Shown piece by piece: positions 12,248 through 28,700 of a DNA stretch of 64,000 bases. Source of the stretch: Bolinopsis microptera (taxonomy: Eukaryota; Ctenophora; Tentaculata; Lobata; Bolinopsidae); contig NC_087073.1 of NCBI RefSeq assembly GCF_026151205.1, positions 17,822,837-17,886,836 of the forward strand, written 5' to 3'. Within the stretch, counting starts at the first letter, position 1, and each line of letters opens with the position of its first letter. Below the pieces are notes generated by a model, which made no database searches, was not told the DNA's origin, and worked only from the letters and a program-made list of their open reading frames with translations. Position numbers and translations under genes: made by a program.

Positions 12248-12345
12248 TTTTACTGTACTTAACGTAAACTCACGATTTACTTTTTTCCTTGCCGTACAAC
12301 AAATAACAGTGGCTTTTTAATTCTAAAACAAGGATATGTTAACAG

Positions 12346-15300
12346 TTGACGGTGGATGGACTGACTTTGGAGAGTGGTCGGTCTGTTCTGCTGATTGTGG
12401 AGGAGGTTCTCAAAGCAGGAGTAAGACCTGTACAAACCCAAGTCCAGCGAACGGAGGACAAGAGTGCGAGGGGGAAGATGAGGAGTCGAGGACTTGCAAC
12501 CCTGAACTCTGTCCAGGTCAGAGTACTTTTTATGTAACCAGCCATATATTTTAAAATAGTTTGAGTAGTAGGCGGTGGCATATTAGATGCACAAACTGAT
12601 TATGAGGACGTTTCGAAACAATATTAAGAGAATAAATCAAAAGGATGTGTTTTTAAACGTTAGGTATTATGTCTTTTATGGTACAAAACGATGTTTGTAA
12701 ATCAAAATAAAAACAGCAAAACCCCGATTTACCGCGGAGTTTGGGGAAAGGAAACAACCACAGCAAATCGGGGTTTGCGGTAAATCGGAGTATTTTGTTC
12801 ACGTGTTAAGCCCTATTTAGGGGAAAGAAATATCCGCGGTAAATCGGGGTTTGCGGTAAATTGGGGCGCAGTAAATCGGAGTTTTACTGTACTTAACGTA
12901 AACCCGCGATTTACTTTTTTGATTTTTCCTTGCCGTACAACAAATAACAGTGGCTTTTAAATTCACAAATAAGGATATGTTAGCAGTTGACGGTGGATGG
13001 AGTGACTTTGGAGAGTGGTCGGTCTGTTCTGCTGATTGTGGAGGAGGTTCTCAAAGCAGGAGTAAGACCTGTACAAACCCAAGTCCAGCGAACGGAGGAC
13101 AAGAATGCGAGGGGGAAAATGAGGAGACGAGGACTTGCAACCCTGAACCCTGCCATGGTGAGATTGCTTTTTATGTAACCAGCCATATTTTAAGGCAGCT
13201 TGAGCAGTTGAAGGTAGCATATTAAATGCATATACTGATTATGAAGACCTTTTGAAAAAAAAAATTAGTGAACAAATCAAAAGGATGTGTTTTTTACACG
13301 ATGGGTATTATAATGAATTTTATGGTACAAAACAATGTTTGTGAATCAAAATAAAAAACTTTCAAATTAACATTAAATTAATAAATCAAGTGGAATAAGT
13401 TATTTTACATTTGAGGTTATTAATGAACTGTTAAAAACGTTGTCGGACAGGAATTAAACATATAATAATTTATTTATTTTTATTTATTATCAAACATGTC
13501 AATCTTACAAATGTCAACAATCCTAAAATAATTTAGAACCTAAACGTGATCCTTTGTAAGATTATATGTCCCAAAAGTCAAATTGACTTGTACTCAAGTA
13601 TAAAGTCGAACAATTTACTCCAATAACCACGGTTACTAGCAAGTTCTCTCAAATGAAGAATATCATCATACGACTCCAGCAAGATGAAACGCTTCCAGAG
13701 GTCAACCTTCAGGTGGTGTAGGAGGTTACGTCTGTGATCCCCGAGTCTACCAACTTCACTACACATCTTGACAGCAAAGCACAGCGCAGCTTGAGCTGGT
13801 GATCTTTCATCGCTTCTCAGTATGTGTCCTAGCATCTTCCACCTAGATAACTCAGCACGCTCAGACATAGGGGTAGAGTTACTCTGTTTGTATAGGGTAT
13901 CTTTGGACATCATACTGCGTGGCCAGCTGACATTCATGATCTTTCTGAGGTGGTTACGGTGACATGCATCTAGTTTGTCCAAATACGATTTAGGCATTCC
14001 CCAGCAACTAGAGTTATACATGAGGATAGATACTACTTGGGCCTCATAGACCTTCAGCTTCTTCTGTAGGGGGATCTTACTCTGGCACCAGACCTTCTTG
14101 AAGTTCTGGAAAGCTACATTGGCTAACATGATTCTTCTGGTGACATCTTTCCTACTTTCTAGCAGAGAACCCAACAACTTGCTACTGCACCATTCTTCAT
14201 TCATTCTAAGGGGTTATAATAAATAAATAAAAAAAAATATTGTTCTCATCTCTCTCTCTCTCTCTCTCTCTCTCTCTCTCTCTCTCTCTCTCTCTCTCTC
14301 TCTCTCTCTCTCTCTCTCTCTCTCTCTCTCTCTCTCTCTCTCTCTCTCTCTCTCTCTCTCTCTCTCTCTCTCTCTCTCTCTCTCTCTCTCTCTCTCTCTC
14401 TCTCTCTCTCTCTCTCTCTCTCTCTCTCTCTCTCTCTCTCTCTCTGTCTCTCTCTGTCTCTATCTCTCTGTCTCTGTCTCTCTGTCTCTATCTCTCTGTC
14501 TCTCTGTCTCTATCTCTCTGTCTCTCTGTCTCTCTGTCTCTCTCTCTGTCTCTCTGTCTCTCTCTCTCTCTCTCTCTCTCTCTCTCTCTCTCTCTCTCTC
14601 TCTCTCTCTCTCTCTCTCTCTCTCTCTCTCTCTCTCTCTCTCTCTCTCTCTCTTTCTCTTTCTCTCTCTCTCTCTCTCTCTCTCTCTCTCTCTCTCTCTC
14701 TCTCTCTCTCTCTCTCTCTCTCTCTCTCTCTCTCTCTCTCTCTCTCTCTCTCTCTCTCTCTCTCTCTCTCTCTCTCTCGTGCCAATGTTAATAGCTGACT
14801 CTGTGGTATTCCTGTGTTCATTTAATGACACAGATTCCCGCTCCTGTTATACCACTAGCTTTGGAGTCGTCAGTGAAGATCTGCTAGGTGTTTGGTGTGA
14901 TATCTTCAATCTTACTATATATAAAGCGAGACGATATATATATATGGGTATATGGATCCGTGCCATTTTACTGACACCACGGCATTAACTTTAACGCGAC
15001 TTTCCGCAAAAACCGTAAAAGATATACAACTGAAACTTTTTTGACTGGGTCAAATGCTTTTATGCTTTTCAAATCAGCATGAAAAAATAAAAAATTGGCC
15101 AAGGAATAGGAGTTTTAGAGCCCAAAATTTGGACCCCTAAGTGGTGTCAAAAACGCGAATTAAATAGGTAATAATTATTTTAGTCTCTTGAGTCTTGACA
15201 CCATTGTAGGGTTATACGGGTTCCTGCTAGTATAGCTAATGGCAGATTTTCTGTCCTGAATAATTATCTGATAAGAAGACATGTACCGAATATTTTCATA

Positions 15301-25700: not shown

Positions 25701-28700
25701 CGTTTTGTACCATAAAAGACATAATACCTAACGTTTAAAAACACATCCTTTTGATTTATTCTCTTAATATTGTTTCGAAACGTCCTCATAATCAGTTTGT
25801 GCATCTAATATGCCACCGCCTACTACTCAAACTATTTTAAAATATATGGCTGGTTACATAAAAAGTACTCTGACCTGGACAGAGTTCAGGGTTGCAAGTC
25901 CTCGACTCCTCATCTTCCCCCTCGCACTCTTGTCCTCCGTTCGCTGGACTTGGGTTTGTACAGGTCTTACTCCTGCTTTGAGAACCTCCTCCACAATCAG
26001 CAGAACAGACCGACCACTCTCCAAAGTCAGTCCATCCACCGTCAACTGTTAACATATCCTTGTTTTAGAATTAAAAAGCCACTGTTATTTGTTGTACGGC
26101 AAGGAAAAAAGTAAATCGTGAGTTTACGTTAAGTACAGTAAAACCCCAATTTACTGCGCCCCAATTTACCGCAAACCCCGATTTACTGCGTATATTTCTT
26201 CGGTCGAACAGTCGAACTATAAGAACGCCCACCAAGATCCGTATCTACAAGGCTGCTGTTACTACTATTCTGATATATGGAGCTGAAGTCTAGAACACAA
26301 CAAGGAAGCAGATGAAACGGTTTGAGGTCTTCCATCTGACCTCCCTGAGAAGAATCTTGAAGATAAAGTGGTTCTCCCGTGTGTCAAAAGAAGAAGTTCT
26401 TCTGGCATTAAGTCTATTGAAACTTTCATCGGTTCGGCTAGACTAAGGTGGTACGGACATGTTGTCAGAATGCCAGAGACACGGTTTCCCAATTTCTTAC
26501 TGGATTGGAAACGGCCAAATTTTTGAAAGAGACTGAGAGGACGACCCCGCAAAGTAGGGCATGTCGTGATATCATGGATCGCTTAGGTTCCACCAGGATC
26601 TGGTATTCCTCATAATTCTGCGGCCTCTATGGTTCGTCATCTCGCACAACTCTTTAAGAATCTTGTGAGTTTGGCGTGTGAAAATTTGCAGCCTTCCAGA
26701 CATTGATTGGGTCAACGAGGTGTCGTACGTCACCTCAAGATCGGGTGACAGGGGGCTGACCAGTGATCAGGCCAGAACCCAATTTATTGGGTCTGAGGTC
26801 ACGTGATTATGAGCCTGAGGTCACATGATTATGACGTCACCAGAGCTTGTTCTCCGAGCTCAAGCTACTTGATCAGGCCTTATATGGAATAATATAGTGT
26901 ATCGCGTGTAATTGGATCCAATTATAGGAGCTGCGCAATTATCGCAGCATATTGATCTGGTATCATCTTCTGAAACCCAGCATGCAAATTTTTTTCATTA
27001 ACAAATAATCCTTCTATTTTAAAATCTATGGCCCAGCTGCATGCGCATGCAGCTGGGCCATAGATTTTAAAATAGAAGGATTATTTGTTAATGAAAATCG
27101 AAGTGAAAATCATGTAACCCTATGTTTTCGAGGACGCTGAACACGATAAAACTGGTTATAATTATCATACTTCAGGGCAAATTGCTTTAAAATGACTTGA
27201 ATGTCATATATGTCATTATAACTATAAGCTAACCGACTAGACGCTTAAACTTGAATTCAATCAATGACAGCTCTAAGCAAAGGTGTAGGAAGCGGGGGGG
27301 GGGCAGGGGCCATCCCCCCATGGAATCTGGGCAAGGGGCCAAAAAGGGCCAACTTTTTAATTTAGGTTTCTAAAAATTGATGGGAAAAAATTTGTTCCCG
27401 AAAATTTTGAAAGTTTTCTTGAAAACTACTTTTGTTCATGTTTCATGCTTTTATGATCATTATAAGCCAAAAATATTTTTTTCGGTTTTCGAAGTTTGAT
27501 ATATGGTTTTGGACTCGAGGGTTCCCCTTTGTAATGCGATCTCGGTTAAGGCAGGCCTCCCCTTCGCAATACGAGCTCGGAAGCGGGAGCTCTGCTTTCA
27601 GAGGTACGTATCGAGAATGACTTGGACCGAAAATTTTCTAAGTCAAAATTTTGCAAAGTTTTTCTGGAAACTACTTTTGTTCATGTTTCATGCTATTGCT
27701 AGTGCTACCCTGATCATTCTGAGCCGAAAATATATTTTTCGGTATTTTGAAGTCCGTACCTACATTCGGAAGGATGTGGATGTGATACTGATTGGTTTCA
27801 CATACTAATTATAAAAAACGTGATATTTGGCCCACAGATTTGAAGGAAAATACGCAAATTTGGTCCTCAGATTTAAAGGAAAATGCGCAATTTGACGCGG
27901 AGAAATTCAGGCTTTGGCGCGTAAGCGCAAACAAATTTAGGCAAATATATTTAGAATTTGGAGCTAAGCAATCTAAAACTGGATGTAGGAGAGACTGATT
28001 TAGCTAAAGACATTACCAAGACTCTCGCACCAGTCAAGACTGTAACTGAGTTTTTGTGTAAAAGAGACAGCATGCTCGCTCAAGCAAAAGTGGTTATTAA
28101 GTTTATTGACAGTTAGCTCGGGGAAATGGGTCAAACTTAATCCTTGTCATGCCCACCTGCAGTAGGTTCCACCAGGATCACTTGTAACGTTCATTAGTAT
28201 AGTAGTATAGTGACATTCGAAAACCACGAACTTTCGTTATCGAACTTTAGTACGTAAATCGTCCGATAGTTAGTGAGAAGAGGAGCAATTGGTTTACAAT
28301 TATAGCTCAAAGCTATCAAGATAAGCCCGAAGTGATTCGACTTCGAATGAAATCTACTGGAAATCCATTCATCACGGCCGTGAATCAAAATAGGATTTCC
28401 ATCGTGGGAATAGGTACAAAGGTATGGAACTATGATCATTATGAGAAACCCCGGCACCGGTCATATCCGGAGGTTTTTACATTTACGAGCCGACTAGCTC
28501 CTAGACAGCTATTGACAGCCTGACAGGGTGGCTCACTTAAATTTGAACTGTGACACGTCCAAATTCCACGTTAAATTGGGGTTTTAATGTAGTAACCAGA
28601 TTCATTATGAATAACATTTATGTCATGATAATCAATATGACCATCAGATGGTTAGGTTAGCGTGTAAAAAATATGCAATAAATTGTTGGTATGGTGACCA

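Follow-up and report, generated by a model that had tools for sequence, protein, structure and literature searches.

In tumors, an L1 element can bridge a fold-back inversion between sister chromatids, as described for a case in which two read clusters lie 5.5 kb apart (PMC7058536), and L1 reverse transcription is also reported at breaks in breakage-replication/fusion (PMC12807874). Fold-back priming followed by a return to the template has been proposed as a source of small inverted triplications (PMC13334657). Here we describe a palindrome of ∼14 kb in the ctenophore Bolinopsis microptera that carries a short interspersed nuclear element (SINE) at its hinge and is built from an array of exons for SRCR and TSP1 domains in a receptor-type gene. 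It lies in a stretch of 64,000 nucleotides (the window) of contig NC_087073.1 (C2:17822837-17886836; RefSeq assembly GCF_026151205.1). SRCR immune-type genes are expanded in Mnemiopsis, and TSP1 is among the domains named in the legend of an SRCR architecture figure (PMC11797021); the subject there is domain architectures and expression, and here it is the palindrome of an SRCR-TSP1 array. On balance we favor the view that this palindrome is a real and young inverted duplication born of a failed SINE insertion.

The origin of large palindromes is hard to study, since their arms are homogenized and the ancestral state is usually gone. At this locus a paralogous array ∼65 kb away keeps the apparent pre-event order, so that the original arm, the copied arm, and both joints can be distinguished. 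As in the tumor fold-back inversion, a retroelement bridges a head-to-head inverted duplication and the break sites are near each other (5.5 kb there, 0.86 kb here). The tumor case, however, concerns L1 and somatic events leading through isochromosomes or breakage-fusion-bridge cycles to megabase gains (PMC7058536), whereas here a SINE is found in an animal's assembled genome, between arms of 6.3 kb, with a second joint that closes an interstitial palindrome. With template-switch models of inverted duplication and triplication, and with microhomology-mediated break-induced replication, the origin proposed here shares the logic of fold-back priming, copying in the reverse direction, return to the original template, and short overlaps at the joints, which at this locus are near chance size (PMC13334657). 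Unlike in the models quoted there, a retroelement lies at the first joint, and the return point lies downstream, giving an inverted duplication with a deletion rather than a triplication. We recognized no example of a germline SINE- or L1-bridged inverted duplication in the open-access literature searched, the coverage of which was partial.

Arms of the palindrome

Self-BLAST of the window aligned positions 19797-26143 with 18583-12248 on the opposite strand over 6,349 columns at 99.7% identity, leaving a spacer of 1,213 bp (18584-19796) between the arms. Base-level alignment found only two differences between them: the length of a TC/GA tract, as judged from its ends and the alignment ((TC)n of 535 bp at 14244-14778 on the + strand; (GA)n partner of 541 bp at 23607-24147), and one short patch (17996-18004 on the left, 20376-20389 on the right) with a net change of 5 bp. 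Outside the tract and the patch, the arms are identical letter for letter in three stretches of 1,996, 3,217, and 579 bp (5,792/5,792 bp). By the rule of three this sets an upper limit of ∼0.05% on their divergence, which is no clean measure of age because polishing with short reads, if applied to this assembly, may have smoothed true differences. A preliminary description of this DNA had reported reverse-complement arms of ∼6.34 kb that differ by 6 bases in the tract and by the net 5-bp patch and enclose an asymmetric spacer of 1213 bp, and our alignments bear it out in each of these respects.

Each arm carries, in order, TSP1 exons, a 1.8-kb insert that includes the (TC)n tract, and a series of 814-bp repeated units, each composed of an SRCR exon, a 154-bp intron, a TSP1 exon, and a further intron. 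The left arm (12248-18583, + strand) ends with SRCR units 1 to 4, and the right arm (19797-26143, − strand), with the same sequence, is part of a gene on the − strand that starts near 31944 (the right gene). The units of the array are 98-99% alike among themselves, and those of the left arm are 5 to 14 bases apart in pairwise comparison over 814 bp (5 to 11 over the 486 bp compared for unit 4). When counted without gaps, units 1, 2, and 4 show no difference from their mirror partners; unit 3, within which the patch and its 5-bp length change fall, scores 71/814 for that reason, and gapped alignment leaves the patch only. The unit order is mirrored and each unit equals its partner apart from this patch, which indicates that one arm was copied from the other as a block and is not the outcome of separate homogenization. 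Gene conversion, offered in the preliminary description as a cause of the likeness of the arms, is not needed, since a recent origin of the copy may be explanation enough and the identity may have been raised by polishing.

The patch departs from the other units in the right arm only, a pattern that fits a new change in the right arm but also a repair of the left. It occupies the same unit position as an element with terminal inverted repeats that is inserted in the SRCR5 unit (19372-19568), and may be a repair scar or an imperfect excision footprint in the right arm.

Polarity of the duplication

We searched the assembly (264.65 Mb in 232 contigs) and found four related arrays, at C2:17.766-17.771 Mb (paralog A, + strand), at C2:8.061-8.069 Mb (paralog B), at C3:20.335-20.343 Mb (paralog C), and on the small contig C81. 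Paralog A is ∼5-7% diverged from the window and is the nearest relative without the palindrome. The window matches it unbroken across the right outer border (24934-26896, 93.2% identity), and the left arm departs from paralog A homology at 12248. The block at this left border (11953-12261, whose last 10 bases run on into the arm by chance) has one match besides itself among the 40 scored of 1094 candidates. That match, at C2:17775826-17776136, lies 5.3 kb downstream of the terminal exon of paralog A in matching orientation; the other listed matches of the left-flank query (query positions 1-112) belong to a repeat further left. Six of the 13 rows that align the left flank with paralog A keep their order, reaching window position 5712 and position 25169 of the paralog A region. 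We read this left flank, in six blocks at 5712-12251 (− strand) that follow the order of C2:17775826-17781169, as the putative former downstream flank of the right gene, split up by repeats, with the left arm as an insertion between the two. The right border is collinear with paralog A and the left flank, for the most part, with the DNA downstream of the paralog A gene, and therefore the left arm is the copy and the right arm, in its ancestral setting, is the original.

At a larger scale, the window at 5712-26896 appears to be a segmental duplicate, in inverted orientation, of the region C2:17765109-17781169, which lies ∼65 kb upstream; each has insertions of its own, and the upstream copy has no first exon. 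A 0.66-kb repeat adjoining the paralog A gene (C2:17770939-17771597) has at least 39 other copies at 94-97% identity.

The hinge

The hinge is occupied by a nearly complete tRNA-type SINE (18582-18940, + strand) that runs from TTAGTGG to GAGAT followed by 8 A (18933-18940, of which the final A possibly belongs to the intron). It was compared with 29 other copies, each taken with ∼1.5 kb of flank on either side; two of the 29 are neighboring copies with the same flanks. The family is abundant, with 1090 first-look candidates, 40 of which were scored. In 23 of the 29 other copies CGGC stands immediately upstream of the SINE start, and at the hinge the arm end takes its place, so we rejected full-length status for this copy. 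On a different contig, C11:8674279-8676331 holds three SINE copies spaced 0.84-0.86 kb apart, and the two whose flanks were read share flanking sequence, which may reflect a tandem repeat of a unit that includes the SINE.

By alignment, the 5′ end of the hinge SINE meets the end of the SRCR4 intron with a 2-bp overlap (TT, 18582-18583, + strand): the left arm ends at CTAGTT, where the next TSP1 exon starts, and shares this TT with the SINE start. Beyond the 8 A of the poly-A end follows the reverse complement of the start of the SRCR5 intron, from a point 23 bp past the donor site (18941-18963, − strand, from the exon/intron reading), which is the putative priming site. In the original arm, 857 bp separate the SINE attachment site from the site, upstream of it and on the other strand, at which the SINE 5′ end would anneal. 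The locus thus presents a head-to-head inverted duplication with a retroelement at its joint, a feature of retroelement-bridged fold-back inversion, together with the poly-A end attached at one break, where reverse transcription would have begun, and a 5′ end joined with little homology to a different site nearby (2 bp, 857 bp away).

The remainder of the spacer consists of sequence that is single copy at the hinge. It includes the SRCR5 exon (18964-19290, − strand, with an approximate 5′ limit), of the internal type and identified from an open reading frame (ORF) at 18941-19333 and from Pfam matches of near-identical sister ORFs. Upstream, in the intron, is the terminal-inverted-repeat element mentioned above (19372-19568), which is confined to the spacer and absent from the other units, with many copies of its inner part and ends in the genome. 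The alignment also places here the TSP1 exon between SRCR4 and SRCR5 (19630-19798, − strand, lower limit approximate), the first 2 bp of which fall in the right arm.

The outer joint and the missing 3′ end

At the outer joint, the end of the left arm and the downstream flank overlap exactly by 4 bp (TTTT, 12248-12251). In paralogs A, B, and C the final SRCR exon closes with LQCE-stop, as read by eye, C81 being outside this comparison. The region 3′ of the terminal exon is 86% identical between paralogs B and A over 417 columns and 77% between C and A over 205. None of these three terminal 3′ regions has a match anywhere in the 64-kb window, and the SRCR5 exon of the window is of the internal type, not the terminal type. 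As assembled, the right gene is without the terminal SRCR exon known from its three relatives. If the SRCR5 donor is unused, the reading frame meets a stop after a few more codons (GESILVS-stop), and a protein with a new end is possible.

A deletion of 5.3 kb, as the distance in paralog A would imply, is probably too large an estimate, since paralog B is without a 4.7-kb stretch that paralog A has downstream, possibly as a private insert. The loss at the palindrome may be ∼1.6 kb if that stretch is private to paralog A, and larger if paralog B lost it. Three small, repeat-like pieces of the stretch found in paralog A only match the window at 34.0-36.2 kb with 79-89% identity.

A model for the origin of the palindrome

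The anatomy of the locus, both overlaps, the collinearity that marks the left arm as the copy, and the absence of the terminal exon are seen in the assembled sequence. Beyond the preliminary description, this makes the SINE the joint itself, the left arm the copy, and the 3′ end of the gene a lost part.

We hypothesize that a nick arose in the sense (−) strand of the right SRCR-TSP1 gene, 23 bp inside the intron that follows SRCR5, and that SINE RNA was reverse-transcribed from the nick by way of its poly-A end. The 3′ end of the nearly complete SINE complementary DNA (cDNA) would then have failed to join the other side of the target and would have paired by TT with the sense strand of the gene itself, or with a sister copy, 857 bp upstream at the start of a TSP1 exon. 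From there it would have primed backward copying through 6.3 kb, from SRCR4 to SRCR1 and on through the TSP1 exons, before the new strand, by a 4-bp overlap (TTTT), switched to the flank that lies downstream of the gene. That switch would have left out the terminal SRCR exon along with the remaining part of the array, giving the order original arm, single-copy spacer, SINE, inverted copy, downstream flank. We infer the order of these steps, the nick, and the enzymes. Fold-back of a growing SINE cDNA would yield a spacer made of the SINE plus the skipped 857 bp, each once, as is found, and a two-step history is less economical, given that on either side the end of the SINE falls at the joint. 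The full proposal, in which a single germ-line retrotransposition attempt made a large palindrome of an immune-type gene array when the SINE cDNA end primed 6.3 kb of backward copying of host DNA, is one we advance tentatively, as somewhat short of an even chance.

Several observations weigh against this account. Inverted flanks of at least 60 bp within ∼1.5 kb on each side were found at 0 of the 29 other SINE loci, and therefore a palindrome is no common outcome of SINE insertion; nor did the insertion sites of these 29 copies display a clear endonuclease motif. Target-site duplications of at least 6 bp accompany only 3 of the 29 copies (6, 6, and 25 bp, the last within a tandem repeat), and we dropped this feature as a test of the SINE joint since it is uninformative and usable neither way. 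Overlaps of 2 bp and 4 bp are, in our judgment, little longer than chance might give, and both joints, as read from the assembly, are unproven. Seven of the 13 left-flank rows lend no support to collinearity, 5 of them falling on one repeat (paralog A 21989-22089) and 2 having the opposite orientation (10714-10754, 41 columns; 10100-10188, 89 columns). Homology between paralogs B and A runs out in an A/T tract, at a distance of 3-12 bp from the outer rejoin point (paralog A 19827-19833 versus 19836-19839, the latter being C2:17775836-17775839), a proximity for which a one-step origin does not account.

Alternative explanations

That the palindrome is an assembly or library error, arising from chimeric long reads, from a gap filled by a single bad read, or from a wrong path through the array, we consider unlikely but the most serious of the alternatives. 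The B. microptera assembly was made with wtdbg, gap closing by TGS-Gapcloser, haplotig removal, and pilon polishing (PMC10232365), which speaks for an error if that is the assembly used here; polishing of repeats could also produce perfect arms, and palindromic reads of artificial origin have been described following whole-genome amplification (PMC6218980). If fold-back or missed-adapter reads were the source, however, the outer flanks should be mirrored as well, and the preliminary description expected perfect symmetry of such an artifact, whereas here the left outer flank is foreign to the right one and matches the DNA downstream of the paralog A gene. The SINE sits exactly at the joint, the overlaps of 2 and 4 bp are in our judgment too little for an assembler misjoin, and the window holds 0 N, although this last is a weak point because closed gaps would leave none. 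Of the three options raised in the preliminary description, these observations favor a real inverted duplication and disfavor both two haplotypes joined head to head and misassembly of a tandem array, the left flank being neither a mirror nor an allele of the right.

The remaining alternatives accept the palindrome as real and assign the SINE or the likeness of the arms to separate events. Palindrome hinges are prone to breakage and retrotransposons are able to patch breaks, and a palindrome formed by template switching without a SINE could later have broken at its hinge, the cruciform tip, captured a SINE, and been trimmed by ∼0.86 kb on one side. Such a history accounts jointly for the SINE and the asymmetry, but it needs two events, and the SINE must hit the old joint and wipe out its traces, with CTAGTT retained on the left and the start of the intron on the right; we regard it as rather unlikely. 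Placing the SINE first, as an ordinary insertion in the SRCR5 intron that later became the break point of an unrelated inverted duplication, draws on the ordinariness of intronic SINE insertions and on the abundance of the family, yet it asks that the second break hit a spot no more than ∼5 bp from the usual SINE 5′ end, as shown by 23 of the 29 other copies, which makes this quite improbable. Gene conversion between palindrome arms is known from primate Y chromosomes, and an old palindrome whose arms were kept alike in this way would agree with the identity of the arms outside the tract and the patch and with a family homogenized to 98-99% between array units. A young copy explains that identity without conversion, however, we found no independent sign of conversion in the arms, and the right-arm-only patch fits a new change there (or repair of the left arm); of the explanations weighed here we hold this to be the least probable, and very improbable. 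We therefore continue to favor a young inverted duplication that arose from a failed SINE insertion.

Gene content and neighboring features

The SRCR exons 1 to 4 of the left arm and their intervening TSP1 exons extend over 15610-18429 (+ strand) with a period of 814 bp; they were identified from ORFs, with Pfam applied to the first and fourth of the four SRCR ORFs. In the Pfam scan of 2 SRCR and 4 TSP1 ORFs, all 6 scored above the cutoff for SRCR or TSP_1. The 1.8-kb insert of the arms is absent from paralog A, and its ORF, which we take to be long interspersed nuclear element-like, has a sub-threshold Pfam match only.

The first coding exon or exons of the right gene (31522-31944, − strand, from ORFs and Pfam) encode an apparent signal peptide, as judged by eye, a Cys-rich stretch, and TSP1. 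The upstream part of the first exon has no copy in the left arm; at 82% identity or above it matches only the window itself, C2:8.07 Mb, and C3:20.34 Mb, with three weaker matches of 68-70% on C5, C6, and C13. Without a first exon, the left arm probably does not constitute a gene of its own. At 30065-31708 the − strand carries additional units of TSP1 exons, which resemble those of the arms at roughly 87-92% and are apparently part of the right gene, and a self-inverted stretch of 0.48 kb with 92% identity lies at 4322-4798. Rfam and tRNA scans of the 64-kb window gave 0 hits.

Implications

Should the proposed origin be true, retrotransposition would be tied to the birth of a palindrome in an animal's assembled genome, and retroelements would count among the sources of palindromes that are inherited. 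Were transcription of the right gene to continue beyond SRCR5 through the hinge, the transcript would contain 6.3-kb inverted arms and could, hypothetically, form a long hairpin RNA. The proposed origin, if true, would also show how an array of immune-type genes may acquire an inverted copy while its 3′ end is lost, both in one step.

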